From Rhea pennata (Eukaryota; Chordata; Aves; Rheiformes; Rheidae), in contig NC_084670.1 of NCBI RefSeq assembly GCF_028389875.1, positions 11,255,383 through 11,319,382 of the forward strand: 64,000 nt of DNA, in the 5' to 3' direction. The translations under genes were made by a program, and so were the position numbers. Shown here piece after piece: positions 16,901-52,783 of this stretch (the first letter of the stretch is position 1; each line of letters begins with the position of its first letter). The notes under the pieces are model-generated. The model was given only the letters and a program-made list of their open reading frames with translations. It was not told the origin of the DNA and did not search any database.

Positions 16901-19430
16901 TAAAGTTTTTCCTTTATTTTATTTTTTTTTTTTTTTTTGTCAGGAGTAAGAGTAAATATGTCCCCTGCAGCACTACACTGGGGAAGGATCTTCATTTAAT
17001 TGTGATAAGATGGGAAGTTTGAAGGTCATGATCATCTTGCAGTGTTCTAGGGGTTTAAAAAGCTATGAAAGCAGTGCTTAATGCCAAACTTCAGAGGCCA
17101 GAAGTGGCTAGTACTAAAGATCTGTTTTGTTCTGAATGAAGCTTACAAATAAGGGCCTAACACTGACAGACACTTGGATGTTAAGCAGTCATAGTCTTAC
17201 AGCTTTGCTTATTGCTTGCTAACATATCAGTATGCTCACAAATTTGGCTGTTCTATGGACAGGAAAGAAATTATTATTCTTTTCTTTGGAGGAGTTGGAA
17301 GGGAGGATAGGAGAGAAGATCTCGCTTTCACTTTCTGCTACTGCAGTGAAGCAGAAGTAGCAATTAGATGGAAACATCCCTGGCAGAGGTTCAAGAGGTA
17401 GGCTTAGAAGCACCCCTCCCCCTAGCCCCCATGACAAATCCACATTTACACTGAATTGAATATTGTCATAGAAAATTAAGTATAAATAATGTGGAGGCGT
17501 GCAGCCTCCTGTTTCCTTCCTAGCCGTCTGGGAGATGACAGTAGGCATTTTCTCTTCTCCTCTGGGAATAAGAACAACTCTTCTTGGCTACTGGCTAAAA
17601 GCTTCTCAGGTTATGCATCATTTCATAAGCTTCATTACTGAAAGTTTATTGCTCTGCCTCGCTGGCTTACTTCTGTAGTCCTGCTCCCTGGATCAGTGCA
17701 ACGCTTCTTTCTTTCTGCTTCAAGAGGTGGTGAGCATGGGGGACTTACCCATGGGAGAGCCTTGTGGAGTTGTTGGTCTTTCCTGTTTCATGTGCTGCTT
17801 TGTCCACTTCAGTGCACCTTGTGGCAGTTTCTCTGCCTCTGTGGAGTCTATAGCCTCATCTGTAGACTTGCAATGTGACATGATAGAGAAGATGCACAGT
17901 GTCCAAGCTAAATGACACACACTGAGTCATGAAGCAGCAACTTGGGTGGGCAGAGAACTAGAATGTAGCACAGGTATTTCTGCCCTTGGTACAGCACTTC
18001 CAGCAGCACTGTCACTCTTCAGCTGCTCAAACACCCTTCCCTTCAAACATGAGCCTGGAGAGGGGAGGAAGAGGGCAGAGAAGGTAGTTCTCAGACTCTA
18101 CTTCTCTGACAAAGTTTTTTCTTCTGTCAAAGTTTGCTTTACTGCATGAGGAAGATAAGCCCACACAACTGTCTCATGTTCCATCTTCAAACCTGGCAGC
18201 CTCAGAGATTGCCTAACAAGGTTGGGAGGTCAGAATTTGGCTGGGCAAAGGCAGCAGCCTCATGCCTCCCAGAGGTGGCTGCCTGTAGAAGCCTGGCTGC
18301 TGCTTCTCCAGCAAATGCAGGTTGCTCTGTGCTAGCTTACGACAACACAGCTCCACTCTTTGTTCAGCAGAGCAAAAATCAGCTCTGAAGGGGATTCATG
18401 ATGGACAGGGCAGGGCAGGAAAGAGGATTCCCCAACATAAACTAGCATGATGCTGACTTCAGACCTGAGAAGTCTGGCTTAGCTATAGCATGTTTGTTCT
18501 GTCACTTAGTTCTTCTGTTCTGTATGGCTTTATCTTTGGGGCAGGATGGAAATCTCTGCAGGTTTGAGAGATCACCCCCTGAAACTGTTCAGATTACTCA
18601 GTAAGGGTTTTGGCAAAGAAGTATTCTGGCTCAGCCCTTGTTGTAGATCTCCAAGGATTTGCTTTTCTAGAGCCCTAATGGAAGTACTTTCAAAAATTCA
18701 GGCTTTTCAATGCCCAAGTAGTTTTGCTTTTGCAGGAGGAAGTCCTATAACACAACAGATCCATAACACGGTGAGCTGGGCTATTTCACCTAAGCATTGT
18801 AACAAATTTAGCTTAGGAGAGACGTTACCAGCTCTATAGTAAGAGATGGGCTTTTGAAACCAGCTGTGAGTGCTTACCTCCCTGTAGGTCTGAGCTCTAA
18901 AGGGAACAGTTCAAAACAGCTATAAAGCTAAGCAAAAAGGAGTGTGTTATTTCAGTTTGCTTTTTCTCCTGTACTGTAGGAAGAAGCATGACAGATGTTA
19001 GTTAGGCTTGGATTAGACTGACTTTGAGGATGTTTCTGTAGATAGTTTGGGATTACAGTTGACAACAGATGAGAATAGTAAAGTAATCTTAAATCGGAGG
19101 CAAAGGAGGAGAATGTCAAGGCATGTATTTCAGATTTCTGGGTCTAGTGTAGCTCTTTAAGAGAGATTCCATCTGATTTAACTGCATAGGTATGAATCTC
19201 AATGAAATCCAGAAATAAAGAGGGAACAACTCTGTCAAGAAGCAACACAAATGGGAGCTGGTGTCCTGAGCCCTAGAGAGCTGTGGTTTGTAGGTGTCTG
19301 GCATTTTCACTGAGTCTTCTTACCCCAAACTACTGCTGTTTATCTATCACAAAATTCACTGTGGTCTCTGAAAGCTCTTCAGCTAGAAGTCTGCAATGAA
19401 AATATAAGGAGCTGGGAAACCTTTGGCATT
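13991..19430. other. Intergenic stretch between CCDC163 and the mucin-like gene, no gene seen
   Basis: About 5.4 kb of average-composition sequence. All open frames are short, without a splice-consistent partner or a recognisable domain. There is a T-run at 16917-16938. I see no tRNA, no CpG island and no obvious young transposon. It may include 3' flank of both convergent genes. Confidence 0.6.
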
Positions 19431-19436
19431 TGTAAC

Positions 19437-19442
19437 TTTATT
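19437..19442 (-). terminator. Candidate polyadenylation signal for the mucin-like gene
   Basis: The plus strand reads TTTATT, which is AATAAA on the minus strand. It lies 2.2 kb beyond the stop codon at 21612 and is the candidate I picked out downstream of the stop by eye. If used, the 3' UTR is long and the gene ends about 5.4 kb from the convergent CCDC163 end. Assignment is by position only. Confidence 0.35.
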
Positions 19443-21611
19443 GCAGAAAAAAATCCACTATTAACATATTTTACAGAGAAAGTTGCACTTTGGTGTTTGG
19501 CGAGTTTTCTTCCTCACCTGGACAGTGATGGATGGGAAACCAGAACAACCAGCCCCTGCATTTTGGGTTGTGTGCAGAGACTCTTTCCAGCTACACCAGC
19601 CTACACCAGTTTCAGCGAGGATGGAGTTTTATTTTCCACAACTAACTTGCCTCTCTTTTGTGCCAAAAACCAGTAGCACCCTGCCCTACGGCAGGGGAAA
19701 CAAGCCTGTAGCTAGGGAGATTGCTCTGTGCAGACAACACTTGATACAAAAGCTTTGGAGCAGTGACAATTGCCCTTTAGTTTCATGTAATATTAGGAGG
19801 AGGGAACCAACCCTTCTTCCTTATTGTACCGGGCATCCTTAGAGTAAACACACAAGCCCAAAGCCAACAGCTGAACCAGAACTGTGCTATGGTCATTTGT
19901 CAGCTACTTGGGAAGCAGTAATGCAGGAAAGGAGAACTAATGCCTTAGCCAGTTCATCTATTTGACCCACACAAGTTCTCTACAGGCAGCCCCATCTTTG
20001 AGTTTTATAGAGATTACTAATTTGAGCCTTGCTGGTGGGGAAATTCCCCTTTCCCTTCCTTCTGCACTAGTATGAGCAATAAATAACTGGAGGAAGAAGG
20101 TATTTTTGCTAGTGAGGCAAGAGCCTGTCCTTTGTTGGGGGTCAGTGAGTGCTGCCCCTGAAGGGAGAAGGGAGATTGCAGTTTGTAAGAGCAATGTGAT
20201 AGAAGATCTCTAGCCCTTGCTGTTGCTCTTGAGGGAGCAACTGGCTTCATCAAAAATCAGTCTAGAGAAGGGGAGATGGGCACATGTTTCTCTTACCTGC
20301 CATCAAATGTGAATTAGAAAATGGGAATGGGTGTTACTTACATGAAGTCTTCCGTACAACACTTGGAATCCTGCAATGCGCAAATTGTTTTTTTTTTCCT
20401 AAAGACAGGACATGCGAAGATCCTCAGACTTGCACTCAGAGGCTTTGGCCCTTTGAGGGAGCTCAGGAGCCTTGGTGCAACACCTTGGATGCAGTTTACA
20501 GCAAGGATGTTTTGAGGCAAAAAGGCATAATCTAAGCATCCTAACACCTACGAAGGGAACAGGAGGAAGGCACCTGCATCCAGGATTTGTCCTCATGACA
20601 AGACACGAACTGGCCTCAAAGACCAACATTAGAAAATAAAGGAATTTAGATCTTGCACTAATAGAGGAGGGATAGTACAGTACTAATTTTGTACAACTTT
20701 CAGCAATGAGATGCTAGCAGCAAAATGGGAGGTACCTGAGGAAAGGTATGTGTCAATCCAGAAAGGGAAATGGACTAAAGCATTTACTGAACTTGGGTGA
20801 GGAGTTTATGCATATGCTGAAAGCATCAACTATGGCAGACGCAGACTCCTGATCTTGGTGAGACCAAATTAGTGTGTCTAATTGGCAATTGATTGAGTCC
20901 TATCAAACCTTATACTAAAATTATGTTCATTCCCTCTTGGCAACTTCAGAGCAACATTACGTAGCAAGGGCACTTCTCCAGTGGTCACAAAGCTGTTTTT
21001 CCTGGTTGAAGAGAAAGGTATAGAGGTAGGAAGGAAGCAGAGCAGTCTGCCATCCTCCTGGCAGGCATTTTAGGATGGACAGTGCCCAATCCAGCACTAA
21101 AGCTGAAACAGGAACAAAAAAAGTGCAAGGAAAAAAAAAAAACTTAAAGTACAGAACAAGAGGGAGCCCAAGAGAACTGATCTCCCCATCCTCAGGTCCC
21201 TCAGGAAGCAACAGTCTCCTTTGCTGGCACTGTGCTGACACCACCAGTGTAAGAGCTCTTATATGGATCACTTGCCCACTTCCTTTGGAAGCAGCAGTTG
21301 CCAAGAGGGGCAGAAGAGTCCCTTGGGAGCATGCTGCCAAACACTGTCTTGGCTAACTGGCCACAACACTAAAAGGAGAAAGCACCTCTTCAGGGCATTG
21401 TTTCAAGGAGAGCCTGGAGGAAAGGGCCAAACCTGGGCTCTGATTCCCAGCATAAAAACTTCAACATTGAAATATTTTGAAAAGTCTAAAACCAAAAGCC
21501 ATTTGAAAAAGATCTTTCAGTCGTGTGCAAATCACAGCCACTCGTTCCTCAGCAGCTCATCTGGGACCAAGTCCTCGAGGCCTTCTCCCCTGGGAAGTTC
21601 AGTCTGGCTGT

Positions 21612-24600
21612 CTAGTAGCTGTAGAGGGAGAGGGGGGTGTCCTCCATCATGTCATCCTAGAAGCAGAAAAGATCATGTTGTAATGGGCTGTCTGCACAAT
21701 GGCACACAGCAACAGCCTGGAGGCGTGCTGTGCGGGCAGCACAGTCATGCCATCCTCACTGTCACTGCATGGCCATCTGCCCGGCCATCAAACCAAATGA
21801 TTTTCCTGTGCAATTCCTGGATCTTTGGGCATTTGCTCTGCCCTTCTGCTGCAGCTTTTGGAAAGAAGAGCCCTACGCAGGAAGAGCCTGCCTGCTGTAG
21901 GGATGTGGAAAACCCTGGCTGTGAGAAACTCCACTCAGCTTATAATAGCATCAGCTTTCTTGCCAGCTGCAGAAGGGAATCAGTGTGCCTTGTCCCAGAA
22001 AGCATAGTGAGTTAGTTGCAGCCTCCTCAGAGCTACTCCAACCTCTGAAGCCCTCGTCTTTTTATATCCCAAAGAATAAAATACAGACAGACAGACAAAC
22101 TCCCCTGGAACAGAGCACAAGATCTGCTTTGTAATAGGCATCCAGCAAGTTGAGCATAGGAAGAGATAGGAAAGTGTCATTTCAGGGGAAATTTGGAGTG
22201 TGCTCCCCTTCCTCCTGCATTTAACCTCTAAGTGTTACCCTGCAGAGCGAGGGGAAGGCAGAGAGCCTCTTCAGTGGTCAACCTTGAGAAATGCTGGTTT
22301 GATGCAAACCCTGAATATAAAGAGAGGGACCAGGGGTTTTGATAAGCATTTTCAGTGCTACAACTACGCCAAATGTTGCCAGTGTAGCAGAAGGGGAACT
22401 GCAAAACAGCCAAGAGCCTGTAGCAGGTCCGACTGTGCCAGGCTGGGCCAAAGGCATTGCTCACCATAGGTAGGTCCTGCAGGCGCCGGAATTCCATGCG
22501 GCTGTTGTGCTGGCGATATCTCAAGAAGGCCACCAGGCCCAGGATGCCCACCATGACAATGAAGACAGAGATCACTGCGATTACTAAGGGATCAGCCCTT
22601 GTTGTCTCGGCCAAAGGAAAGCTGGGCAGCTCTGCAAGGCACAGATACCAGGGGAGTAAGGCCAAAGGAAATCCAGCTGGAGTAGCAGAACCCTGTCTTT
22701 TCTGGACCTCCCCAGCACTCAAGTTTTAGGAAGACAGGGACAAAAGCAGAGCATTTACCTGGATTTTTATCATCGCCAACGTCCAACACAGAAGCTTTCT
22801 CATGCACAAGCTCTACTGGCTGCTTTAGTGCAGATGCACTGGTGCTGACAGCAGCTGTGCTGCTAGCAGTGGAGGTGGTCACAACGAGAGTCACTGTCGC
22901 AGCACTGGAGGTGGTAGCAGAAGACATACTCCCTTTGGTGGAGAAGGGAGCAGAGGTAGTTTGTGGCTCCATGGTGCTTGTCTCTGTGTCAGGGCTCATC
23001 CCTGATGTGGTCCCAGATCTCACTGTTGTAGACCCCACGATCTGACTGTCAGAAGATCCCAGGTGCGAGCTGTTGGTTGTTGCTGTAAATAGGGACGGAC
23101 AGTTATTTTAAAAGATAAACCCCAAACATGGCGTAGGGCCCATAAATCCTGTCCTACCCTGGGAATGAAGGATGAGCAGGGAAGCCCTAAGCAGCTTTGT
23201 GGAAAGCTAGAGACCACCCCAGAGCAAAAGTCTCTCTGTGGAGGGCAGCACCAGGACTGGATAGTGGCATCTCCCAAGGCTGTATGTGTGTGTCACAGCA
23301 GCAGGACCCTGTGACATGAGCTGGGGCGAAGGATGCAGTTCTGCATAAACACCATGCAAATCAATGGTCAATCAATACATGCTTCACATCAGGGGTGTGT
23401 GACAGTCTATGAGGCCCCAGGGCTGTTGAGAGCAGGGACCATGGCCTCTTGGAGCCAGTCCCCCCCGCTGTCCAGAGGGATCTGAAGGTCGCAGTTCCCA
23501 CGCGGGCGAGCTGGAGCTTGTGGCTGCCTCATCTCTGTCCCGTCTTAAGGGAGGCAGTGATGGGATGCCAGCATCAGCGGGATGAGCCTCCCACAGAGCT
23601 GCTCTGGGCCGCCTGGCTGTTGTGCACATGGGGATTTCCATCCGACATGGAAGAAGGATGCTCTGCCCCATTTTGCAGGCATCACTAAGGCTCCTGGCAG
23701 GCTCCCAGCCCTGGCACCCCAGCTGGGCAGCACTCCGGAGCTGTGCTGCAAGGGCACTGAATTGACAGGGGCTGCTCAGTGGCACTGTGTGCGCAGCACA
23801 TGTATATCTGGGAGGAAAAGGGCTTGGTTTGTATGAGAGAGAGAACGGCCTTCGTGGCATGCATTCAGTCACCTCGCTGGAAAGCAGCCAACACAATTAA
23901 CACCATGAAGGGGCTTGCAAGTAGGGTGCTGAGCCAACAGCACCTCAGCAAGTCATCCCCATTTACCAGGACGTGCTTAATGACTCTCTCTGCATCCCCC
24001 CCCTTCTCCGATTCCCAGCAGAGTTCAGGGGGACGAATGACATTCAGTGCTGCGAGTTCAGGTTGTGCATTCCTGGAGCAAGACTTTCTGCAGAGCTGGG
24101 AAAGGCAAAACCTCACCTGGCACACTGTTTGGTGGAGATGCTGGGGCTGTACTGCCTGCACCCACTTCTGTTGTGCTCGAAGACTCTGTGCCTTCATGGC
24201 CAGGTGCATTTTCCTCCTGAGTACTGGCATCTGAGGAAGGGATTTCAGTGCTGCTGTTAACTGAGAGGCTTGTGTTGTGGTGCTCATGATTTGTAACCGT
24301 GACATCCCCTGGGCTGGAGGTGGAAGAATTCTGCAGTCCCTCTGCCTCGGTGCCTGGCACGTTCGGAGTGGAGATGGAGGCACTCTCCTCTGCAGCAGGG
24401 GCTCCAGTGCCATTGGCCACTGCAGCAGTCATGTTTTTTTCTGAGCCTGTTTCAGGAATGGTGGTAGTCTCTGGACTGGGTTCAGCGGCTTCACCAGGCT
24501 GGTGTGAGGTTGGCATTGTGCTGAGAAAAGGTGACGGTGTCACCAAAGTTTCTCCTGTCTTCTGCCCCTCTCCTAGGGAAGGGAGATAAGAAATACTGCA

Positions 24601-27600
24601 AAGTTTGTCAGAGGTCCCATGCGGAGAGGAGAAGCAGAGGGAGAGGCCAGGAGTTGAATCTCTCCATCCCCTTGCCTCCAAATGCAGGACAGGTTTTCAC
24701 ACGGGAAGCACAGCTTCAGGAAGGGGTTCAGGCAGCCCCTCTGCCCTCTTGGCCCCCGTGGGGCAGGGGCAGCTCCAAGGGCCTGTCTTTCCTCCTCCCC
24801 AAAAAGCCCCCCCTGGCTATTACTGTCTCTACACCCTCTACTCTACCCAGGGGCACCCTTTTAGATGATTTTAAGTATCACCTGAGACATGATTCTGCAG
24901 GAAACTTAGTTTAGTCTTCCTTGGTTCATTGAGAAAGGGAAGAAGAGTCAAGAGTCAGAAGTGGTTGGAAAAAAAAAAGAAAAGAGAGAGAGAGAGAGAG
25001 AAAGAAGCAAGTGGGGGAAGAAGTGGAAGTAGTTCCTCTATCTTCCCTGGTCCAACAAACTGTAGAAAACTGATGTTTAGAAAGTCTGTGGCTGGCAAGA
25101 GTGAAGCACATGTTGCTAACCATCTTAGCAGCAGCAAGCAGCCCAGGCTTGCTGCTAGAAGGAAAGGTAAAATAGGTAGTAAGGGAGTACTCCCGCTAAC
25201 AAAGACGGTATAGAAGCCAGGGTTACGCTCAGGAAGCCGCCTTCATGAGCTATTTATGAACACATCGTCACCATAAAGTGTGACCGTTGTCATAGAAATG
25301 GGAGCGACTCAGCCTGCAGCAAAGCGGGGCAGCTCCTGCGCAGGGACCCGCCACGCACAAGGATCCCCCGGGGCCGCCGCCGCCAGACAGCGCGCCCGCG
25401 CGCAGGAGGAGGAAACCCACAGAGCTCCCACGCCGCCAGCGAACAAACACGGATCTCGGGAGCGAAGACTTCTGGAAGGGTGTGAACAGGAAAAAACAGC
25501 AGAAAAGTGTAGCCACATCAGCGTGGCCTCTTCAGGCAATTTAAAAACATTGCAGGGCCAATATTTTGACTATTTCTGTCCCAAGTTTCTACCCAAGCCA
25601 CTGAGGCATGACAAGCCAACTGCAGGAAAAAATAAAGGTATTGAAGAAAATTCCATCTTTATGCCCACTCTCTCTGTCCTGGAGAAGCATCCGAGGCAGA
25701 TGCTGAAATAGAGGAATATTCATCTGCCGACAAAGCAGACCACGCCAGTACCAAGGCTTTGGGAAAAATCTCAGCAGCTTTTAAAAGCTTTTCAGAAGGA
25801 ACACGGTTATGGGCACTCTTCTCTACTTACAGCACTTAACAAGCCCTAAGAAAAAGACACAAAGCATCTTCCACGGGAGAGCTCGGACCCGGGAAGCAGG
25901 GCTAGAGGGCAACGCGCTGCCCCTGCCGGGGCCCCTGGCCCACCCGGGCTCGCGCGGGGAAGCACGAGCCAGCAGGGCAACGCCACTCGACACGGCTGGG
26001 GAATTAGCTCTCAAGAGCGGTCTCAAGTTGGGACAAGTTAAACGCGATGACCGAAAGCGCCTTCGCCCGTGCCTGGATCCAGCTGGAACGTGCCTCTGAA
26101 CGTAGAGCAAACTTTGGGCGCTAAGGTGGAGGATACGCTTACGACGGTGATACCTCGGAGGAAAACACTGGGCGCTGCATGCCCGAAGCTCGCAGCTCCT
26201 CACGTGACAATCTCCGGCATTGCAGTTCGGGGTGCTGCTCGCTGGGCGACATCCCTGCAGCTCCGGAGCTCACGCTGGGAATGTCGAGGGATCCAGGCTG
26301 GGCATGAACAGCCGCTTCACAGCTGCTGCGGGTGCATGGCCAGCAGCAAGCCCGGCTGCGTCCTGCCTGGAATAACGGCCCGACGGCAGCCCCGGCGGCG
26401 AGCTATAACCAGGGCCCCAAAAGGATTTGGGCAGAGCTGTCTTGCACGACGGCCTGAGCAGCTCTGCCCCAGCTGTGCCATTTTCTGACCAGGAAAGGAA
26501 AACTAGGAGGAGGCAGAAGAGCCCAAGTCCTCCACAGCAGAGCACCGCTCCGGTGCTGCGGGCTGGTGTCCCCACGGGAGCGCTGCCTGCGGCACGGCCA
26601 CCGCAGCCCGTGGGTCATGCACACAGCTCCCCGCGCCTGCGGGAAGCAGAGCTGAGGGGAGTAATATTTCCCCTCTGTAACTCCTCCTGCCCTGACGGGC
26701 TGCTCTGTCCCTGCATCCCGCAACAACGTAATGGTACCATTTGGGAAGAGCTCGTGCTGTAGTGACAGCACATGTGGGAGCAGGACATAGGGATGCGGCA
26801 CTGCAGGGATGTGGCGTGCAAAACCCCATTTGTAGAGAATCGCAATAGCGATGTTGAGATTGGCAGGTTTGGAGCCTCTGAGCAGGGCAGAGTCCATGGC
26901 ACCTGCATTAGCAGGTCCTTGAGCCCAGCACACCCAGCCCAGGAAACAAAGGAGAACCTAAAGCAGGCTAACAAGGACTCAAACCATTAAGAGATGAGAC
27001 TCAAACCATTAAGAGATGATGGTGGGAAGATAAGAGAAAAAGGCAGAAGCCACAAGATGGTCAAGGAGACAAAAGGACAGTGATCACTCAGGGATGGACA
27101 GACAAAAGATCACTATGGCTGTCTGTCCCTTCCTGAGGGGTGCATCCAAAGCCTGTACAGTCACCACACAAAGCACCAAAGGAAAGAGGTGGTAGGAACA
27201 GGGAAATAGGAAACACAGGGCATCTTGGTGCTTGGAAGCACATGCCTATGAAAGCAGGAGCACCAATGAGTTTTACTTCATTTTTGTTTTAAAATAAAAT
27301 TACCCTCTTCCAAGGTCTTGAATTAAGATTTGCTTTGAATTAAGATTACACTGTTGTTGCAGCATCACAGTTTTGTTTTCCACAGATTTATCACCAAAAC
27401 AGGCACTTGCTGCAACCCATTCCCACCTACCCTTGAGCAAACCCTGCAGCACCATGGGGGAGAGCACGGCTCGCTGCAAAGCCAAAACAGCCAGCAGTGG
27501 CTGGATGAGACCTGACAAGCCTCTTGCTGTGTTAGGCTCCCCAGCATCCAGCCACTGGGGTTTCTGCTGGCTCCTTGGTGTCCAACAGGTGGGAAAATCC

Positions 27601-30600
27601 CCAGCTTCCAGGGCTGTCCTTGGTGCTCCAGCCACCGAGCGCTGATGTTTTCAGCTGTTTGTGGGTTACTTAGAGAGACATAGGTCAGAGCTTGTTACAC
27701 TGGCATCTTCCTGGAGGAGCTCTGCTCCCAGTGCCGGATGCCAGCGAGGCTCTGGCTGCGCTGCCTCGGGCACTGCCACGACGGGCACCTGCAGACATGA
27801 CTCCAGGTGGGAACAGGCCCCTCCAGTCTCAGGTGGAGAGGGAAGGAGTTGGGGTGGCCAATCTACCTTGGCCTCCCCTGGAGCCCTCCGAGGATGGAAG
27901 CTGCAGTATGCCAAGACGGCTGGCGAAGCCTGTCACCCTTACACCATTCCAAAGCAATAATGACCATAATCCAAGCAGATAAGCTGGACCAGCTCAGAGC
28001 AAGGGCTCTGATACAGCAGTTATGCCAAATGCCAAGGCAGCTGGCCCCTGGCTACGGCCGCTCTCCTGCCTCTGTGGGCCCTGCTCACCGCTTGGCTCGG
28101 CCTCACTGTGGCGGGAACCAGCAATCTCAGGCCACGGAAGAGCAGGGCTGTGGGATTTTGGAGCGGCAGCCCTGATCAGACTGTGCTGACTGCAGTGACC
28201 TCCGCCTGGGAAATGGAGGGGTCAGGGAAAAGAGCGGCCCCAGGGGAGTTCGGGTGCAACTGGCCAGGAAGCCCCCGTGTTGGGGCGGGAATGGGTGGGA
28301 AGCGCTCCCCGCTCCGGGAGGGAAAGCAGGCCTCCGAGATCAGCCCTTGGCTTCAGGCCGCTCCCAGCACAACTGACAGCACTGACGGACCTCCATGCAC
28401 CAGCCCGAGCTCCCACCGGCTCTGGGGTGGACACAGGATAAAGAAGCCGTAAGAGAGAAGGATGAAGGAAGCCTGGGCTGCAGGAGATGGGGCTTATCCC
28501 ACTTGGTGCTCTCTGCCCAAGCTTCAGGGCTGAGGCCAAGCAAGGGGTCGTGTAAGGTTTGCACGCATGGAGGCAAAGCCATGCTGTGATTAGCCAGGGA
28601 AAGATGCTGCCTGACAAACAGCTCTGGCATCCCATCTCCCCGTAGCCTGCATGCCACATCCCTGGCCACCCTCTCCAAGCTGGCTTGGCCGGGTGCAAAG
28701 AAACCTCAGCTGGAAGGTCTCCTCCATCCAGCCTGGTCTCACCCCCTGCCACAGCAGATACTCCAAGGTCCAAATGTTTCCCTAAGAAAATAGAGCAGTG
28801 AGATGGAGCAGGGCCCCAGCTGGACCGGTTGACTCAAGGGAGAGCAGAGCATCAGCCTGGAGTTGCAGTCACCACCAGTGCAGAGACCCACGAGAGCTGA
28901 GCACAGAGAGATGGGAAAGTCAGCCTAGGATTTCAGAAAAAGTGACCCATGAGAGCAGGACTGTCGCAAGCTAACACATCTTCCCATGCAGGCCGCCACT
29001 CTCTGTAGCTAGCACTTCATTTAAATTGGCTTCATACAGAACATGTTTCAAACCACGACTCTGATACATTCAAAAAGGCAAGCAAAACCCTCTAAAATGC
29101 TATTTTTGTGCACATACTGAATCCCATTTCTGTTTAAGTGTAAAAAGTCATGAACAACATAGGCAAATGCAAAATTCATACAATGTTTAAAGAGTAAGAG
29201 CATAAGCTGTAACCTGTAATGTATTTAAGCAATTACATCTTCTTCCTTAGCAAAGTACTCCATTAACTGCAGAAATTACCTTTTGTTGCCAGTTATTACG
29301 TTTTTATGGTTACCAACCAACAGTAATTAAAACAACCTCTTCAAGGAAAAAAGAGCTTAAGTATAAACGCAAATAAGACCGTGCAGTGGGATTTCAAACC
29401 AAGGCTCTTCACTGCACTTAAAAGCAGAACTGGAGCAGCTGCTGATTCAACGCCAGCCCAGCCTGCCTCTCCCTCCTTCACTCAGCGCCCAGAAGTGAAA
29501 AGCCCCACGGGGCAGACAAGGTTCCTCAAGCCCTTCCGGTAGCTGCCGGCCGCTCCCGGGGATGCCACCCAGCGAACACCCCCACACAGCCAAGTGGGAT
29601 GCAGAGATGCAGATCTGGTACGACGGGCCACCAAGTAAGCCCCCGCCCCAGGTTGACGCCTGGCTGGAGGCAGGCTCCCGCCGGGATGCACTTTGCTGCG
29701 GGCTCCCTGCCAGCAGAGGGGCTGATGCTGCCACCGTCCCTGTCCCCGGCACGGCGGAGAGGGCCTCGATGGGCTGTCTGCTGCAAGAAGCCCACACATG
29801 GGGCGCAGGGACAGCCCGGTCCCCGCCGCCCGCGTGGGGACCACAGCGGAGGCGCCCAACTGTGGGAGCCCGCGGCCGGGTTACCCGACCCTCGGGAAAA
29901 ACACGGCAGCTGCAGGGCCCGGGGCTTAGCAGCCAGCTGCTGCATCTCATCGGCGTTCGAGCAAAGATTTAGGGTGATTAATCCCTAAATTTGCCTGGCT
30001 CGCTTTGCCGGCGAGCCAGGCAAAGCGTCAGCAAGAGACGCGGTGTCCGCAGCGGTCTCTGGGCGCCGCGGCACGGGCCGCTCCAGCAGCCAGCGCTGCC
30101 CTCACCCCCCGCGGCCCCGGCAAGCGGGGCCGTGCCCCGCGGCGCGTGCCGCGAAACGCGAGGTGCCAAGAGGCGACCCTGGAAACCGGCCAGGCGCGTT
30201 GCAAAGCGATGGCTGCGGTGGGACGGGAATAGAAAGCCGCTCTCCTGCCCGAGAAGCTCCCTGCAGCCCGACAGGCAGGTGGCCACGAGCGGAGCACGAG
30301 ACTCGGCTCGGATTAGATACGGCGCTCCGCGGAGGGACAGCCCCGCGGCCAGACGCCGAGCCTCGGACTTTACGCGCCAGGAAGCGAAAAGGGGAGCCAG
30401 GGCCCTTGGCCCGAACACCCCGGACAGGGCAGACGGGGAACCGGCCGGTTATTTTCCGCGGGCTGCGTGGGACCGTGAAGCACCCTGCCCGGCAGGAGGG
30501 TGCCCAGCGGCTCCTGCGCAGTTTGCTCTGCGCCTCAGTCTTTGCAGCCCCGATAAACACAGCAGCGGTGCGGATTGCTGGCATCAGGCAGCCCTGGCCC

Positions 30601-33600
30601 CCGATCGCCTCGGCGGTCGCAGCTGCAGCGGAGGAAGCGCTCACATCGTTAGGAGAAAATTAATTAGCCAAGTGCCTTAATAGCAGCCCCGTGCCAGCAG
30701 GGCACCTGGCTGCCCTAACGCCGTCTCCAGCACGCAGCGATCTGGGGGGAGCCTGGACATCATGACCCCGCCGGCCCCCAAACAGCCCCTCCGGGGCACC
30801 GGTGACGTGCGGGCTCGAGAGGGGCCTCGAGACGCCGCCCTGGGCCCGAGCAGCTCCTTCCACCGGGTGCCCAGAGGGCTGGGGCCAAGGGAGCTGAAGG
30901 AGGCGAGCGGTTCACCGGGGCCCGGGAGGGGAACCCAGCTGTGCCGAGCCCCGTGCCCCTGTCGAGAGGAGGTGACGTCCCTCCTTGCACGGGAAAGAGC
31001 ACAAGGAAGAACTGGACCCTTTTCCCACGTGGAAGGTGGCTCTGGAAGCAGCAGGGAGAAGCAGCCGGGGATGCAGCGGGGCAGAGCCGTCCCGAGCGGC
31101 ACCCTCGGTGCCGGCAGCCGCCGGCCGGGCGCCGCGGGGGCGAGACGGCGCCTGTCGCCTGCTCGCCTGGCCCCGGGCGCCGACAGACGGGGCTTTATGC
31201 ACCCTGCGGGGTCCCCTCTGCTCGGGGAGGCGGCAGACAGCGAAACGCCCAGCCCAGAGTGACTCCGGGGCTTTTATTTTTAAGGCGAACGCTGCTGGAG
31301 GAAGTGGATTTTCGCAGGCGGTGAAGAAAGGCCGCATTGAGAGGCCGGGGTGGGCTGAGCGTGGGGGAGCAGCCGTGGGGCCGGCCCCGGGGCAGGACCA
31401 GGCTCCCCGGCACCCGCGTACGGGGCTGCACGTGGGAACTAATGGGGCGTCGTGGGAGGGAGGGGGGTTCCCGCTGCTCAGAAGTGATTCGGAAGCGGGG
31501 GGTGCTTTAGCAAGTGGTTTAGTCTCCTCCTGGCTGGTCTGTGGAGGCCTGGGTGAGCAGGGACCCAGTGCTCCCAGTCCAAAATGGGAGGGGGGGGTGT
31601 ATGTTCCCTGTGAAATCCAGTTTTTAGCTCCCTTGTAAGAGTTGCTGCTGCCATGCAGCAGCCTCATTCGCACCCCGCAGGGCAGCCCCAGCTTTACTGC
31701 AGTGCCCATGGCATCAGCTCCAAGCTGCCTTCAGCTATTGAGCCTCCTGGAAGACTTTTGCTTTTGGGAAAGAGCTGGCCTGAATACTATCTCCAGGGTC
31801 CAAGGGGTCTGTAGGGTCATTAGGTAACTTTCTGAAGGAAAGAAAGTGTGTACGTGTCCCTCAAAAAGCTCCCCAACACATTGGCTTGTGTCAGCCAAGT
31901 GTGATGGAGAGGCAAAAGTCTCAGAAATGTGGTGTCCCTACAGGTTTAGGGATGCTGGTGGCCCAGGAACAGCCTCTAGCAGGAAAGGTCCATGTGAGCC
32001 CAACCCTTTTAATGAAAATCCTGTGGACCAGCAGCCCCAGGAAGCCCCACCACAGGCAGAGTGGAGCTGGGTAATCTTGCATGCTGGCGATGATTAAGAA
32101 AATCAGGCCCTGGACAAGCGGAGTGATGGAGATTTCTGTGGCTTCCCCCTATCCTGGACTGACTCCCGTGTCTGTCTGGAGCAAACCCAGATATGGAGCG
32201 GGGCCAGATGCTGCTGGACAGAGGGGTCTGAAGAGGATCAGTGCTGGGAGCAGGGCAGAAAACAGCTTGTGGTGCTGGGAGCTGCTGGAGAGAAGTCCAG
32301 TTTGGCTGGCGGCTGTTGACTTTGGGCCCAGCCTGCACGTGAAGCCTTCCCTGCACATCATCATTGCCCAGCCTGGAATCTCTGGTGTCTCATCAAGGAT
32401 TGCTCTCACCACTTGGGGCTTTTTTTTTTTATTGACAGCATCTCTCCCTGGCCACCTGTTTTCACAAAACATGTAGAAACGTGGTCTCTCTGGCTGCAAC
32501 TACCCAGCCACAGATGCAAAAGCCACGAGGACAAGGGAAGGCAAACTGCACAGGTGCCATTTCCTGAGGCCACAGAGGGAAGTTGAGATTGGGACACTAA
32601 GCATGAAGGATCCCAGGTAAAGTCCAACACAACGTTAATGTTGGACTTTACCTGGATTTTGCATGTCCTGGCAGTCTGAGCGTTGGGCCCTGCACTAAGA
32701 GGGCTCCCACAAGCCAGCGGAGGATGTTGATCTTCCTGGGGTACCCTGGTGTGCTGGGGCCCATCAGCATGGGGAAAAGGGATAAGAACCACCCCAAGAC
32801 ATGGGTGCTCCCTGGCAGGCAGCAGCCCTCGACTCCCGTTCCTTCTCGGCTGATGGAAATCCCGAGTTGCATGCTGCAAACCACCCTCTGCCAGCACCTG
32901 GCATGCCACGAGAGCGCAGCTGCCCACGCGTGGCCGGCACAGGCGTCACCGCGGGCTTTGCACACGTATGGAGGGCTGTCCCGTGGCTGCTTCCCTCAAA
33001 CCTCAAACCCGGCCTAACCGCATCCAGCGTGCGAAAGCTCAGCCCGAGCGCCTGCTGTCGTGCCCCTGCTTGGGGCTCGGCGCCGCGCGCCGGTACAGAC
33101 GCGCCTACGCTGGGGTTTTGCCAGCCCACCTAGCTACGAGGGATGGTTTCCCCGCGTCACCTCTCCGCTCCCTACCGCTCCTCGTGCTGCGCTATGACCA
33201 GCCAAGGCGCAGCGAGAGGAACACGCTCGCTTCCCAAAGCCCTGCCCGTCGGCTCGTGGCCCCGGGGGTGACGGAGGACGGCGAGCACCCTCGGGCCCTG
33301 CAGCAGGCCCGAAATGCGGACGGGGAGCGCCGGCGGGGGCCCCGGCCCCAGCGTCGCCTCCCGTCCCGTCCCCTCCCGCGGCGTGCCCGGGGCCGGGCTC
33401 GCAGCGGGGCTGCGCCCGCCCGCCGAGCCGAGCCGAGCCGAGCCGAGCCGAGCTCCAGGCGCCCCGCACGGGCAAGGCCTCGGCCGGTGCCGTCGGCGCT
33501 GCCCTGGCGGGAGCGCGGCGCTCGCCTGGGCCGCGGCAGCATCTCCCGCGGACCCGCCGGCAGCCGCCGGGGCCAGGGCAACTCCGGCCAAGTTTCGGGG

Positions 33601-33998
33601 CCCGGCGGGCGGGCGCTTGCAGACGGGGCACACCGCGGCCCGCGGGCCGTTTGCTCCCGGGAGGTTTTCGGCATGGCGAAGGGCTGCCGGGGTGGTGGTG
33701 GTGGGGGGGGGGGGGATCCCCGAGAGCCGCCCCCCTCCAGCGCGGGGTTTTGGGGGAGAGAAGTGGAAAAGCGGCCCCGCGGCGGCCCCCGACGGCTCGC
33801 CCCGACCGGGCGCCCCGTGGCACCGGGCTGCGCTGCCGGCGCGCCGAGAGCGCCGGGCCGGCGCGATCCCCGGGACCCCCCTTCCCGGAGCCCCGGCGCC
33901 CCCCGGCAGAGCACGGCGGCGGCGCCGGTACCTGGCAGGGCGCAGAGCAGGCAGCAGGCGGCGGCGAGGCGGAGCAGGGCGCGCCGCGTCCCCTCCAT
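21612..33998 (-). CDS. Mucin-like type I single-pass membrane protein, five coding exons, unnamed
   Basis: Coding exons on the minus strand: 33998-33932, 24572-24117, 23082-22759, 22631-22465 and 21656-21612 (TAG). They total 1059 bases, or 352 residues. Junction phases are 1, 1, 1 and 0 and all agree; donors are GTACCG, GTGAGG, GTAAAT and GTGAGC. Residues 1-22 are a signal peptide (MEGTRRALLRLAAACCLLC then ALPG). Residues 23-290 are rich in Ser, Thr, Ala and Pro with several N-glycosylation sequons (KNMTA, NGTG, QNSST, HNTSL, VNSST, TTNSS), as in mucin-type ectodomains. Residues 298-319 form one hydrophobic helix (LVIAVISVFIVMVGILGLVAF), and a 33-residue tail begins RYRQHNSRMEF and ends DTPLSLYSY. 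No Cys-rich, SEA, EGF or Ig domain is seen. It was presumably placed on the cell surface as a heavily O-glycosylated protein. I do not recognise the family. The CpG-island start has A at -3 and G at +4. Further small phase-1 exons inside the 9.4-kb intron 1 cannot be excluded. Confidence 0.8.
24980..25001 (+). repeat. Purine run with (GA)n microsatellite
   Basis: About nine GA units follow an A-rich tract, in intron 1 of the mucin-like gene. Confidence 0.8.
26977..27020 (+). repeat. 22-bp tandem duplication
   Basis: The unit beginning ACTCAAACCATTAAGAGATG occurs twice head to tail with one mismatch at the last base, in intron 1 of the mucin-like gene. Confidence 0.9.
29850..31450. promoter_or_regulatory. 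CpG island inside intron 1 of the mucin-like gene
   Basis: About 1.6 kb of GC-rich, CG-dense sequence lies 2.5 kb inside the intron from exon 1. Open frames on both strands are long, as expected from composition alone, and none encodes a recognisable domain or signal peptide. It could be an alternative promoter, a non-coding transcript start or an enhancer-type island. Limits are by eye. Confidence 0.55.
29967..30024. repeat. Two abutting perfect hairpins
   Basis: The first has 8-bp arms ATTTAGGG and CCCTAAAT around an 8-base loop (29967-29990). The second has 14-bp arms TTTGCCTGGCTCGC and GCGAGCCAGGCAAA around a 7-base loop (29990-30024). They share base 29990 and sit at the edge of the intronic CpG island. 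Confidence 0.85.
32613..32655. repeat. 17-bp perfect inverted repeat with 9-base loop
   Basis: CCAGGTAAAGTCCAACA and TGTTGGACTTTACCTGG are exact reverse complements around CAACGTTAA. With one bulged C the pairing continues for two or three more bases. It lies in intron 1 of the mucin-like gene, so it would be transcribed as a stable hairpin. Confidence 0.9.
33423..33452 (+). repeat. (CCGAG)6 pentanucleotide repeat
   Basis: Six exact CCGAG units lie inside the CpG island, within intron 1 of the mucin-like gene. Confidence 0.95.
33688..33715 (+). repeat. G-rich run (GGT repeats then about 13 G)
   Basis: GGGGTGGTGGTGGTG is followed by an unbroken G-tract, in intron 1 about 220 bases from the exon 1 donor of the mucin-like gene. 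It is compatible with G-quadruplex formation. Confidence 0.8.
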
Positions 33999-34179
33999 GC
34001 TGGGCCGATCCGCGCTGACTCCGCCGGTGGGGCCGGGGCGGGAGCGGGGCGGGACCGCGGCCGGGGCGGGGCGGCCGCCGCCTGGTCCGGCCCCGGGCAG
34101 GGAGGCGCGGGGCGGGCCCGCTGCCACCCCCCTCCCCCGGCACCCCGCTCCGCTCCCGGCCCGGCCTGCCCCGGGCACC

Positions 34180-34620
34180 CCCGGTCGGGTCCCGGGCACC
34201 CCGGGTCCATTCTGAGTTCCCAGGGTCCGGTCCCGCATCGTCCCCTGGCACCCTCAGTTTGGTCCCGCATTGTCCCTGGCACCCCAACTCCGGTCCTGCT
34301 CCACTTCTGACACCCGCGGTCTGATCCTTCACTGTCCCGGGCACCCCTGGTCCAGCCCCAGACCCCTGCTCCGGTCCCCGCTGTCTGTAGCACCCTGGTG
34401 CCCAGACACCCCACGTCCGGTCGCTCACCACCCCCAGCACCCCCTGGTCTCGTCCCTCACCACCTCTGGCATTCCCAGGCCTGCCCGCACCCTCCATCAT
34501 GCCCAGGCCTCTCCCATGCGCCCCTGATCCAGCCCCACATCCCCCCGGCACCTCCAGTGCTGCCCCACATCCACTCTGCTCCTGCACCCCCAAGGCCTCT
34601 GGCACCCCAGCAAACCCAGC
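34180..34620 (+). repeat. Degenerate GC-rich minisatellite, unit about 31-33 bp
   Basis: Diverged units follow the pattern TCCGGTCCCGCATTGTCCC then TGGCACCCC.GG, about 12 to 14 times. Clear copies begin near 34225, 34259, 34290, 34320, 34410 and 34442. It sits immediately upstream of the promoter of the mucin-like gene. The repeat explains the long minus-strand open frames here. Confidence 0.7.
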
Positions 34621-43233: not shown

Positions 43234-43486
43234 TTTATTTATAAAGTATATCTAAATAATATTTACATATTTATTGTATTTATTCACCTAGGGCCACACA
43301 AGCATATAACCAGCCCCCTGCCCACCACGTTCAGGTACAGCAAGCCCTCCACACTCCGAGCCCCCGGTCCCTCTCTGAGGGCATTTCCGAGCAGCACCAC
43401 CACCGTCAGCCCCGCCGGGAACGGGACCGCGGGCGGGCGGGTCCCCCGCTGCCGCGGCTCAGCCCGCGCCCGCAGGCCGCGCTCAT
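43234..43486 (-). ncRNA. Possible divergent non-coding transcript upstream of TESK2
   Basis: On the minus strand, leaving the TESK2 CpG island, three AATAAA signals occur within 51 bases (43284-43279, 43275-43270, 43239-43234). The first minus-strand ATG at 43486 opens only 26 codons of low-complexity Arg/Gly/Ser-rich sequence. This layout fits a short, early-terminated promoter-antisense RNA. Transcription is inferred, not shown. Confidence 0.3.
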
Positions 43487-44560
43487 GGCGCCCCACTCGC
43501 TCGTCCCGCGCGCGGCCTGCCGGGAGGCGCGGGGCCCGCTGACAGCTTCCCGCCCACTGCGCTCTGTAAACACTCGGTGATTGGCTCGCTAGCCCTTTCG
43601 TCACAAAGCAAAGCTCACTCTTACTGGCTGAGTCTCTTATTTACCACCCGCCCTCTAAGGTTGACCAATGAGAGAGAAGCGCCCTTAGCAACGCCCCTCT
43701 CTGTTTCCTGTCGCTATTGCCCCAGGAGTAGTTATCTCTGTTTCAGTTGGCCAAACCACCTGCCTCTCAACTTGCTCTCGGCCAGTTACAAAGGGGGGCA
43801 CTCACGTGGACTACCATCGAGACCCTCCGCCTGAGTCCCGCTCCTCGGTTGGGCGAGCTCCCCCGTCCATCTAGCGCACGGGCGATACCGATTGGCTGCT
43901 GGGCTGGGCTGCTCTGCGGGTGCCGCCCCCGGGCGCAGCGGGCGGCGGCGGCGGCGCCGGCAGCGGGGGCGGAGGCGGAGGCGGGGGCCGAGGGAGGCGG
44001 AGTCGCGGCGGCGGCGGCGATCGCGGCCGCGAGCCCCGCAGCTGGGCTCGCTCCTCACATGGGGCCCCCTCGCTTGCCGCAGCGGCGGCGCGGACCCTCG
44101 CCGGGGTGCTGAGGGGCCGGGGAAGGAGGCGGGGGGGGGGGTGTATGCGGCCATGAGAGCCCGCGGCGCCCGTGGGCCCTGCTGGCGCCGGCGCTCAGGT
44201 AACGGCCGGGGGCGGCGGGGAGGCGGCGCGTGCGCGCGCGCGCGCGTGCCTGTTTGCAAGGGTTGGTGATGGATTTCGCTTAACAGGTGCGCGGAGGGGC
44301 TGTGCTCGCGCAGGCGGCGTCGGAGGGGCGGCGGGTGCTGCAGGGCGCCCGCGCGCGGCGGCGGCGCCGCGAGCCGCCTGCGGGAGCCCCCGCTCGCACC
44401 GCGGGGCAGAGGTCTTTGCGGAGCGAGCGGGCGGAGCGGGATCTTTGCCCCGCCGCGTGGGCGCTCGGAGCGGTCGCTTTGCCAAGAGCTGTGAGAACTT
44501 GGCTCGGGTTTTGCTGTTCTGAGCGCTGCGCCGTAAGAGTACGTGAGTCATGCGTTAGTG
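43330..44560 (+). promoter_or_regulatory. TESK2: TESK2 CpG-island promoter
   Basis: A CG-dense island surrounds the non-coding first exon of TESK2. It carries three CCAAT boxes: ATTGG at 43580-43584, CCAAT at 43665-43669 and ATTGG at 43891-43895. There is a CACGTG E-box near 43803. No TATA box is evident, so initiation is probably dispersed between about 43900 and 44140. Confidence 0.75.
43930..44198 (+). other. TESK2: TESK2 non-coding exon 1 (5' end approximate)
   Basis: A strong donor, GCTCAG then GTAACG at 44199, closes the exon in the middle of the CpG island. The only coding-exon partner found downstream begins at 51663 and has untranslated sequence before its ATG, so a 5' UTR exon is required. 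The exon includes two upstream ATGs at 44145 and 44153. The start at 43930 is a guess from the last CCAAT box. Confidence 0.5.
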
Positions 44561-47500
44561 ACAGGCTTGGCTGTCAGGTATATGCGCGTACGTGTTTGTT
44601 TTGTGGCTTTGACATGAGAAGTGCTTTATAAACGGAGCCGATCGCTCCTCATACTGTGCTCCACTGAGGGTGGGAACTGTATTCGCTTTTAAGCAAATTG
44701 GAGGACTTTCCAGTTGGATACTCTGTTACGTACCTGGAGAGTTGAAGGCTAAAATTTTGAGTACTGAACTGGATTTTGTTTAACTTTAGACCTTTCTGTT
44801 TCTCACCTTAATTTTTAGGCCAGTTTATGAGTAATCTTTACGCTTCAGCTAAAATAATATTTTTTAACATATTGTCTGCAAAATCAATAGACCTGCAGTT
44901 CTGTGGACTTAATTAGTCAGTGGAATTTACAGCCTAACATAAGATGTTTTATGAGAAACTCTGATATGCCCAGTGGATTAGCCTTAAACCTTTCCATTAA
45001 GTCATCATATTTGGAAATTATTGTTGCATACCTTATCCTGATAGGCCAGTAAAAATGTCATTTTCTCTGACTCTTGTAAAGGTATGCTGTATAGCTGTAG
45101 ACATGTCTGTATACTTCCATTATGCTTTTTGTTTTGTCACCATGTAAAACTTGTATGCAAAACATAAATAGCTTGAACTGAAAGCAGATGGGTCTCTTTC
45201 CCCAAGCTGGTGGCAAGCATGTGCTGTTCTGTGTGTTTTTTCAGTTGTGCTACAGGAGTACATTCTGTTTTGTTAGGATGAACAGCTGGCAATAGGAGCA
45301 GAGCAGGAGATAGGAATGGACCAATCCTTGCTTCAGTACTTCATGTTTTTGTGACTGTGAAAGGAGAAAATTGGCCCAAATGAGATATTCTTAGTGGTAT
45401 ATGCCTCTTGTAACCTAACTAGACCCTCTGGTTCTATGCATCTGCTTTCGTCATTGAATTTCTTTATGTAAATCATTTGACAAATTCATGAAAGAATTGC
45501 AGGGTTGAAGGAGGGAACCGTTGCTTCTATGCCTGCTGCAGAAAATAACAAAACTTGTGGTTCTCTTGCATAATAGTTTTCCTTTCTATATTCTTCCTAT
45601 AGCTAAGAACCAGGCGTTTGCATAGGAGCAAAGCTTTTGTTTGTATCCTTATAGCATGGTACTTTGCAGCCTGGCATAAAAATACATGTTCTTCTAGGCA
45701 AGATCAAAAAATGGTCAAATCTGTAACCTTTCTGCTACTTACTAGTTTTTTAATGTATTAATTTGAAGTTGTGCATTTATCAGTAAGCACATCTAGTAAT
45801 CGGCCCCTGTATCCCACTGGCCCCATCTGTTGTCTGTTGCCAAGTCCTCTGTGGTTATGCCTGACTTAGTAAGCTTCTTTTCATATGGCTCTGTCACTTT
45901 TTCTTAAGTTGAACACACGTATGCTAGTGGCTAAGCCACTTTATTATTTGATTCTTCAGTGCAGCCAGTGGAACAACTGTAATTGCTTTTGCAGCCAGGA
46001 GGGGAGTTAGTTGAAATAACTTTGCTTTTGAAAGCCAACTTCATGTGCTTCAGCTTTGTGGCTCTCAAACTGTGAGGTATGTATTTCCCCTTGGTACCCA
46101 AGGTGCTTCAGATTGGGGTGTGCTGGAAGAAGCTTCATTTGAATACCAATGTTGGCAATATCTTAATAACAACAAATTTAGGAAGCGCTGTTCTCACTTC
46201 ACAAATTTGTAAATAAATTAGAACTGTTACTGTTCTCTTTGTGTATCAGGTACCTGAAGTAAAAAACACTTAAATATGGGCTGGAGTTTCAGCCATAGTT
46301 TAATGGTAGATTATAGCAGGTTTCGTAAATGTTTGTGGAGATGATAGCTTTAGCTGCAAAGTACAAATGTTCACAGTTGTATATGATTATATAACATAAG
46401 ATAGTGTCCAAGAGAGGTCAGTCAGATATGAAACACAGTCTATTTATTTTGATTTCATCCCTCTTTCATCCACTCCTGTTTTCTTTTGTTGCTTATGCTA
46501 TACTGGCTGCATCAAAAAATTGTAAGTTGTTTCCTATCTCCTGTGAGGAAATTCCCAGTGCAAACAGAGCTCTCACCCCTCAGATAGAAACCTTGGTGAA
46601 AGGTTGAGGGAGAATTCCTTGATTATTGGGATGTTACAATACCCATTGGTATTAAGAGGCTTTCACACCTTTTGCTTTTTCTCAAGAGCTAACCTCAGTG
46701 CACAGAAACCTGGAAGTCGTGAGCTGCTTCTCAGCCTCTTTACTGAGCCCTGCAGAGGCTGAGGGAAGAGCAGGGCTTTCTGGATGGCTTGCAAATCTCC
46801 TGTTTTGTCAGGCAAACATGATATATTTAAATTACCCATTTGAAGCAGCAGCTGTATGTTGTACCTGATTTACTTTAGTTTATTTGACTTTAGTCAAGTA
46901 CCAAAGCATTGTTATAGTCCATCTACACTATGGGTTGAAATCACTACAAGCAGGTTATGGGACAAATGGATTTTTGCAGGCACTTTTTGTTTAAGCTTAG
47001 TTCTGTATCACATTTGGACTCTAGAAATTGTTGGCAATAATATTGTTGTCATAAAGATGAAGTGTCTTTTTTCTGCAGTTATATTTGCCTTCTAAGCATG
47101 TGCCAGACTTTAAAACTACTTGTATCAAATATAGGCATAAACCTACAACCTTGTCCCCAGGTCTCAGCTTCTGCAGTGTAGTGGCTGGTCTCTTCTGTTG
47201 GGATCAAACTTGGCTTCAGTTACAAAATAAATGAGTTGTTTGTTTCAGCAAAGCTTTTTGTGGAGGCTTGTTTGCAAAACTAGCATGCAGTTTAGCAAAC
47301 TTCCAGTCCCTGTACTGGAGTAGGGGGGATAATGCAGGTCTCTCGTAAGAGGAACGCTAGCTGCAGCTGTGGCAAACTGTCAGTGCAATAGCACTGGCCA
47401 GAGTTTGGAACTGTCTTCTACAGGGGTGATGAAATTACAGCAAAAAGTTACCTAATGATTTTTTTTTAATTGAGTGTAATATAGTAACTAAAAAGATAAA

Positions 47501-51662: not shown

Positions 51663-51966
51663 CATCCAGCAAGAGCAGAGAAGACAGCAAAGTACCTAAG
51701 ATGTGAAAAGTCCTCTCTTATCAAAAGGAAGCTTTGTTTTCAAAATGGACCGAAGTAAGAGGAATTCAATAGCAGGATTTCCACCACGCTTGGAGCGCAC
51801 TGAAGACTTTGATGGGGGCAGTGGAGGTGATGGGACTGCATCCCAGATAGGAAGAGTTTGGACCTCTTCATACAAAGCCCTGATAAGTGCCTTTTCCAGA
51901 CTTACCCGCCTTGATGATTTCACCTGTGAGAAAATTGGCTCTGGTTTCTTCTCTGAGGTGTTCAAG
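51663..51966 (+). CDS. TESK2: TESK2 first coding exon (coding from 51745), rest of gene off window
   Basis: Testis-specific kinase 2 is a dual-specificity (Ser/Thr and Tyr) kinase of the LIMK/TESK family that phosphorylates cofilin and so affects actin turnover. The exon has 82 bases of 5' UTR and then 74 codons from the ATG at 51745, which has a strong context (A at -3, G at +4). The protein begins [20 protein letters not shown], has a Gly-rich linker and then [19 protein letters not shown]. The kinase domain starts at about residue 58 with the nucleotide loop [11 protein letters not shown] (residues 64-74). The donor after 51966 is GTGTGT, phase 0. The ATP-binding Lys and everything beyond lie in exons right of the window; I found no further coding exon up to 64000. 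Identity is very secure from the sequence. Confidence 0.95.
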
Positions 51967-52783
51967 GTGTGTGTTTAATTTCTTTCCTTCTTCATGTTGA
52001 TTGCTTGGTGTATTTGGTGCTGAGAATATGTGAAATTATCAGCAGGCATACTACTTTCTCTAAAGTCAGTTGTTTGCTCTTACATTTGCTCAAGTATTTT
52101 CCCTGTCTCTCTTCTAGGTATTTATATTATTACTAACAATTTATTTTGATAAAGTTGCAGAGGTATTTGGAACAAGCAGTAAAAGCTAGAAAATCTTTGG
52201 TTTGGTTTCTGATCTCTGCTGTTTATTTTTATGTGTTCATGTATTGTGTTAAACACCAATGGCTGTTGCTTCCCTCGTATGTAACTTTGGATGTCTTTAA
52301 TTTAGCTTGGTAATTAGGTTTTGAGGATTATACTTGTTTCTTTGCCAGTCTTTGCCTCCTAACATTACAAGCCTATGTGTTAGGAGAGCTACATGTAATT
52401 ATTTAATTTGAAATCATAAGCTTTGTTGCACTGGAGTTGTAATAGTTACCTGCTGTTTTCTTTCTCTTCTTGTCACACCTTGTTTTTTATTCAAATTATC
52501 AAAGATTTGTAAGATTCATAATAAATAGTATGAATGAGAAAGTTTGAAGTTGTTGGTGACCTGCTACTACAATATCCGGAAAGTAGATAAAGATTTTCTT
52601 AGAGCAATTTATGAAACCATACAGAAGACTTGTGATCCTGATTTTTATAATGCCTAGTGATATTCCAGCTGTCTTGACTGTTCTGCTAAGTTTTATTGTA
52701 GAAGAATAGGACACTGAGTTGACTTCCAGGCTTTCAGACACTGAGGAAATAATTTGTTTCCTTTTCCTGGTTTCCGACTTTAA

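Follow-up and report, generated by a model that had tools for sequence, protein, structure and literature searches.

A candidate gene for a short mucin-like membrane protein between MMACHC and TESK2 in the genome of Rhea pennata

What kind of protein, if any, is encoded on the minus strand of the DNA between MMACHC and TESK2 in Rhea pennata? We addressed this question in a window of 64,000 nucleotides (the whole stretch of DNA that was analysed, C8:11255383-11319382), and extended the searches for relatives within the same genome to the 1.27-Gb assembly, which consists of 180 contigs. Five exons in the window splice into one reading frame with the layout of a membrane mucin. We propose, with a probability of roughly 0.75, that they constitute an intact gene for a small type I mucin-like membrane glycoprotein of the glycocalyx, which would belong to no recognised family.

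The joined coding sequence of the five exons (coordinates in Table 1) comprises 1059 bases and translates into 352 residues followed by a stop codon, with no internal stop in the 352 codons. All four introns have GT-AG boundaries, and their phases are 1, 1, 1 and 0. Splice sites were scored with approximate vertebrate matrices and ranked against all GT or AG dinucleotides in the window. Donors 2-4 are among the top 0.06-0.7% of GT dinucleotides, and acceptors 2, 3 and 5 are among the top 0.3-1.6% of AG dinucleotides; acceptor 4 ranks lower, within the top 5.2%. The start codon in exon 1 has an A at position -3 and a G at position +4. An earlier note, made from the letters of this DNA, had claimed five exons, four GT-AG junctions and an in-phase product of 352 residues, and joining and translation reproduced this model exactly.

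The predicted protein opens with a signal-peptide-like stretch, judged by hydropathy, that covers residue 1 to approximately residue 23-25, the exact cleavage site being a guess. It is followed by an ectodomain of about 270 residues (24-294) in which Ser and Thr together make up 35% (18.5% Ser, 17% Thr), with 9% Pro, six sequons, and neither Cys nor Trp. The dense Ser/Thr stretch spans residues 151-258, with 53% Ser/Thr in residues 176-258, and gives way to a stem of 36 residues (259-294) with 11% Ser/Thr. A count of four-residue words in the protein revealed no tandem repeats, with just two words recurring. The mean hydropathy exceeds 1.5 in 19-residue windows that begin at residue 7 and at residues 292-305; the best mean, 3.13, is found at residue 298, which places a single helix at approximately residues 297-319. 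The helix is followed by the basic flank RYRQHNSR, and the 33-residue tail, RYRQHNSRMEFRRLQDLPMDDMMEDTPLSLYSY, contains a basic patch and an acidic patch and ends in LSLYSY. By hydropathy, the protein thus combines the features of a type I single-pass membrane protein, namely an N-terminal hydrophobic stretch, one helix and a positive-inside flank. Composition and hydropathy support the architecture described in the earlier note: a signal peptide, a Ser/Thr-rich ectodomain bearing sequons, one helix and a tail of 33 residues.

Rules for recognising mucin domains, as given in PMC9209528, include at least nine O-glycosites per 50 residues, fewer than six residues between sites, extracellular or membrane localisation, and a 12% rule. 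With every Ser and Thr counted as an O-glycosite, a proxy and not a prediction, all 222 of the 222 ectodomain windows of 50 residues hold at least nine, with a maximum of 28 per 50. By the same proxy, neighbouring Ser/Thr residues are separated by fewer than six residues throughout residues 151-258.

We scanned the whole window on both strands for open intervals of at least 320 nucleotides with both splice scores at least 4 and a Ser plus Thr content of at least 30%. Three intervals passed: exon 2, exon 3 and a sub-interval of exon 2, which starts at an inner acceptor and is out of phase with exon 1. When the sequence from 20 to 35 kb was dinucleotide-shuffled 150 times, no such Ser/Thr-rich interval arose. 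Codon-position asymmetry, measured by chi-square and compared with windows lying wholly outside the gene, reaches 47.8 in exon 2 and 44.4 in exon 3, against maxima of 21.5 in 8650 and 26.0 in 8743 other windows, respectively. Exon 4 alone gives a moderate value (19.2, reached by 0.9% of 8855 windows and by 1.4% of the 2570 windows in 20-40 kb). For exons 2-4 concatenated the value is 69.7, which is reached in none of 8318 windows and none of 5000 shuffles. The Ser/Thr richness of exons 2 and 3 is restricted to the open frame; in exon 3 it amounts to 42%, versus 10-20% in the other five frames. A chance origin of the reading frame is very unlikely, and we are highly confident that the gene is real and intact and that its predicted product has type I membrane topology.

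Short membrane mucins help to determine how cell surfaces act as barriers and meet pathogens. We hypothesize that mucin-type O-glycans would stiffen the Cys-free ectodomain into an extended rod within the glycocalyx, and that the rod would form a coat that acts sterically and by its negative charge, either against adhesion or as a spacer. Judging from the architecture, we consider such a coat role reasonably probable. We speculate that the short tail, rather than signalling enzymatically, might serve apical placement or sorting, or attachment to the cytoskeleton or a scaffold, by means of the basic patch next to the membrane and the aromatic C-terminus; this is a tentative and somewhat doubtful assignment.

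The main functional rival accepts the gene as real but holds that most of the protein would be shed or secreted, through cleavage in the stem or through soluble splice forms, and would act as a soluble mucin or decoy instead of a membrane coat. The stem that precedes the helix, with its lower Ser/Thr content, is compatible with this, as low-Ser/Thr stems before a helix are often sheddase sites. The strong helix, the basic stop-transfer residues and the separately spliced tail exon argue for membrane anchoring instead. The Pfam search returned no SEA domain match in the protein, and no search for cleavage motifs was made. We regard a mainly soluble product as unlikely.

Membership of a known family was sought in several collections. 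In Pfam the protein has no significant match, and up to E 10 it hits only DUF6249 (E 0.2 with the full-length protein, 0.022 with a C-terminal piece) and Sid-5 (E 0.39 and 0.035, respectively). Both fall on the helix region, as do the four weak hits up to E 10 in the PDB (best 0.71, NRADD), and we read all of them as hydrophobic-helix noise. NCBIfam gave nothing at E<=1; it is a prokaryotic library, and its silence says little. The search of the rhea's own genome for a paralogue of the helix and tail found none at E<=10, the two candidates scored being exons 4 and 5 of the gene itself. Pattern searches for relatives carried over by contamination yielded 128 matches in a prokaryotic contig collection and 26 in viral contigs, none of which was confirmed as a relative, the expected outcome for both collections. 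The tail peptide strings had no match in the literature searched, and none of the literature matches listed was a paper naming the gene. These results agree with the earlier note, which had recognised no named family. Very probably, the locus is a real, single-copy gene whose product is a short membrane protein of mucin-like type without a recognised family. Automated annotations of bird genomes probably list it as an uncharacterised locus. Short membrane mucins diverge so quickly that standard homology searches fail to follow them.

The earlier note had placed the gene between CCDC163 and TESK2 and had suggested mammalian CIST1 (colon, intestine and stomach enriched 1) as one candidate relative. 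The two flanks are supported by sequence in the case of MMACHC and TESK2. MMACHC occupies the left end of the window on the minus strand, where an exon piece matches PDB MMACHC chains (best 5.9e-23); two of its exon pieces were located with an MMACHC sequence. The first coding exon of TESK2 (51745-51969, plus strand) is 85% identical to a human sequence, and a PDB search with this exon returned no chain at E<=1. CCDC163, in turn, is assigned only by its position opposite MMACHC.

Cattle CIST1 is listed with four exons and maps to BTA7 at ~4.91 Mb, where its neighbours JUND, LSM4, GDF15 and KIAA1683 form with it a block orthologous to HSA19p13 (PMC3276122); the location on BTA7 is also given in PMC11171348. 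In the rhea genome, JUND is found at C27:2135173, surrounded by LSM4, RAB3A and a PDE4 gene that we take to be PDE4C. This block is separate from the mucin-like gene, which adjoins MMACHC and TESK2 on contig C8. We scanned 120 kb of the JUND block with relaxed splice thresholds and listed helices for the inner 90 kb. Between JUND and the PDE4 gene no helix-bearing internal exon passed the filters, which a terminal helix exon would escape; among the intervals listed there, one is Ser/Thr-rich, a low-complexity stretch. Judged from its scores, the gene in the window would have passed these filters.

Two relationships to CIST1 can be weighed against this background. The first is that the two genes are ancient paralogues from whole-genome duplication, both encoding short membrane mucins. 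Each locus has a Jun-family gene in its wider surroundings, JUND in the case of CIST1 and JUN, on the same contig C8, in that of the mucin-like gene. The regions 1p and 19p13 are paralogous. JUN lies ~6.4 Mb from the mucin-like gene, however, and the helix and tail have no paralogue elsewhere in the genome at the threshold given above, so that we consider paralogy quite improbable. Besides JUND on C27 and JUN on C8, the genome has one more bZIP frame of the Jun family, which we read as JUNB-like, at C61:10357872-10358192 on an 82.5-Mb contig.

The second relationship is orthology, the mucin-like gene being the bird counterpart of CIST1, which in mammals encodes a short, Ser/Thr-rich membrane protein of epithelia. 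The outlines are similar, and cattle CIST1 likewise has few exons. Nevertheless, the locus (TESK2-CCDC163 versus JUND/LSM4/KIAA1683) and the exon number (five coding exons versus four listed in cattle) both differ, which makes orthology highly improbable. Because the locus differs and the scans of the JUND block showed no comparable gene, the mucin-like gene is not the positional orthologue of CIST1, and the suggestion in the earlier note is not supported as orthology.

Several observations weigh against our interpretation of the locus as an intact gene for a membrane mucin. The donor of exon 1 is weak (top 9.3% of GT dinucleotides in the window), and it is the lowest among five listed start exons, which were selected on the minus strand in 24.6-40 kb for a hydrophobic start and a donor in phase 1 (0.51 versus 1.12-2.05 in the four others). 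These four alternative first exons, all with better donors, were rejected; their hydropathy is below that of exon 1 (2.72, versus 2.37 for the runner-up). The six sequons exceed the mean of 3.2 in same-residue shuffles only weakly (P 0.065). Without the Ser/Thr condition the window has six intervals of at least 320 nucleotides, and 36 of 150 shuffles also have one, with 6 of 150 reaching at least 450 nucleotides; length alone is weaker evidence, since such intervals also occur in shuffles. Third-position GC is 0.47 in exon 2 and 0.50 in exon 3, near the local background, and provides no coding signal. Finally, no sequence relative was found in the collections searched (Pfam, PDB, NCBIfam, the rhea's own genome, prokaryotic and viral contigs). 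That the locus is non-coding or decaying and its frame accidental, as the weak first donor and the lack of a detectable homologue in these collections could suggest, is nonetheless most improbable in the face of the splice, frame and periodicity statistics, the 352 codons free of stops, and the correct order of signal-peptide-like start, mucin part, helix and tail.

Table 1. Exons of the mucin-like gene and other features in the window.
Feature	Position	Strand	Remarks
Exon 1 (coding part)	33932..33998	-	start codon, signal-peptide-like N-terminus, within CpG-rich region; donor 0.51
Exon 2	24117..24572	-	N-terminal part of ectodomain with 32% Ser/Thr; carries five of the six N-X-S/T sequons
Exon 3	22759..23082	-	densest mucin-like part, then less Ser/Thr-rich stem; one sequon
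Exon 4	22465..22631	-	stem end, transmembrane helix (~residues 297-319), basic juxtamembrane tail; splice scores 2.88, 4.76
Exon 5 (coding part)	21612..21656	-	DDMMEDTPLSLYSY and stop TAG; acceptor score 6.69
Candidate poly(A) signal AATAAA, first downstream of stop	19628..19633	-	consensus match only; hexamer scan of 15001-21612
CpG-rich stretch around exon 1	32800..34300	.	300-base sliding scan
CpG-rich stretch ~7 kb upstream of TESK2 first coding exon	43250..44650	.	CpG scan

CpG-rich stretches were called in sliding windows of 300 bases with GC of at least 0.6 and CpG observed/expected of at least 0.75. The stretch around exon 1 may well be the promoter of the gene, and the one upstream of TESK2 is likely the promoter of TESK2 with a non-coding first exon. 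Intron 1 holds further CpG-rich stretches to which no gene is assigned (25800-26400, 29750-30850 and 30900-31500); those at 25800-26400 and across 29750-31500 are possible alternative promoters or regulatory elements. An extra internal exon with phases 1-1 in intron 1 (28205-28089, 32% Ser/Thr/Pro) is a weak candidate and was not adopted. At the 3' end, the candidate poly(A) signal would give a 3' untranslated region of ~2 kb.

Read-through into intron 4 was considered as a source of an alternative tail. The intron is open for 234 nucleotides (78 codons) and lacks notable codon periodicity, its value being reached by 23% of windows, so that the splice to exon 5 is favoured. This open frame (22231-22464, minus strand) spells WSLSLYSG, which resembles the true tail; because of the same lack of periodicity, the echo is probably coincidental.

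The interval that holds the gene in the rhea is much shorter in humans. According to PMC9020039, the human CCDC163-MMACHC CpG island starts at chr1:45,965,587 (GRCh37); upstream of TESK2, the listed probes reach out to 45,957,060. The gap between the two CpG regions is therefore ~8.5 kb in humans, versus ~38 kb in the window (5500 to 43250). The passages of this paper on the interval describe TESK2 as the neighbour of CCDC163P and name no intervening gene. Two histories would fit, a loss toward humans or a gain in the other lineage. One scenario, which we put forward tentatively and at somewhat less than an even chance, is that a single-copy family of membrane mucins with a distinctive tail occupies the interval between CCDC163 and TESK2 in birds, perhaps in all sauropsids or older vertebrates, and that the lineage to humans lost it in a deletion which also took out most of the DNA between the two neighbours. 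If so, human biology does without such a coat protein. The well-anchored locus and the compact helix-and-tail signature provide a handle to trace the gene across birds, reptiles and mammals, and permit a test of whether it was lost in humans as the CCDC163-TESK2 interval shrank.

Known proteins close in layout include the short membrane sialomucins PARM1, endomucin, CD164 and porimin/TMEM123, which also consist of a signal peptide, a Ser/Thr-rich ectodomain, one helix and a short tail. The tail ending in LSLYSY is not known to resemble theirs. CIST1 is alike in outline as a short Ser/Thr-rich single-pass membrane protein, and is set apart by its locus and exon number. The inventory of chicken mucins, which required a PTS domain together with a SEA or VWD domain, includes the transmembrane mucins Muc4, Muc13 and Muc16 (PMC1552070). 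The rhea protein differs from these in having no SEA or VWD match in the Pfam search up to E 10, and no tandem repeats. It resembles all three in carrying a Ser/Thr-rich ectodomain on a single-pass anchor, and Muc13 in particular in that the mucin domain is split over several exons (PMC1552070).

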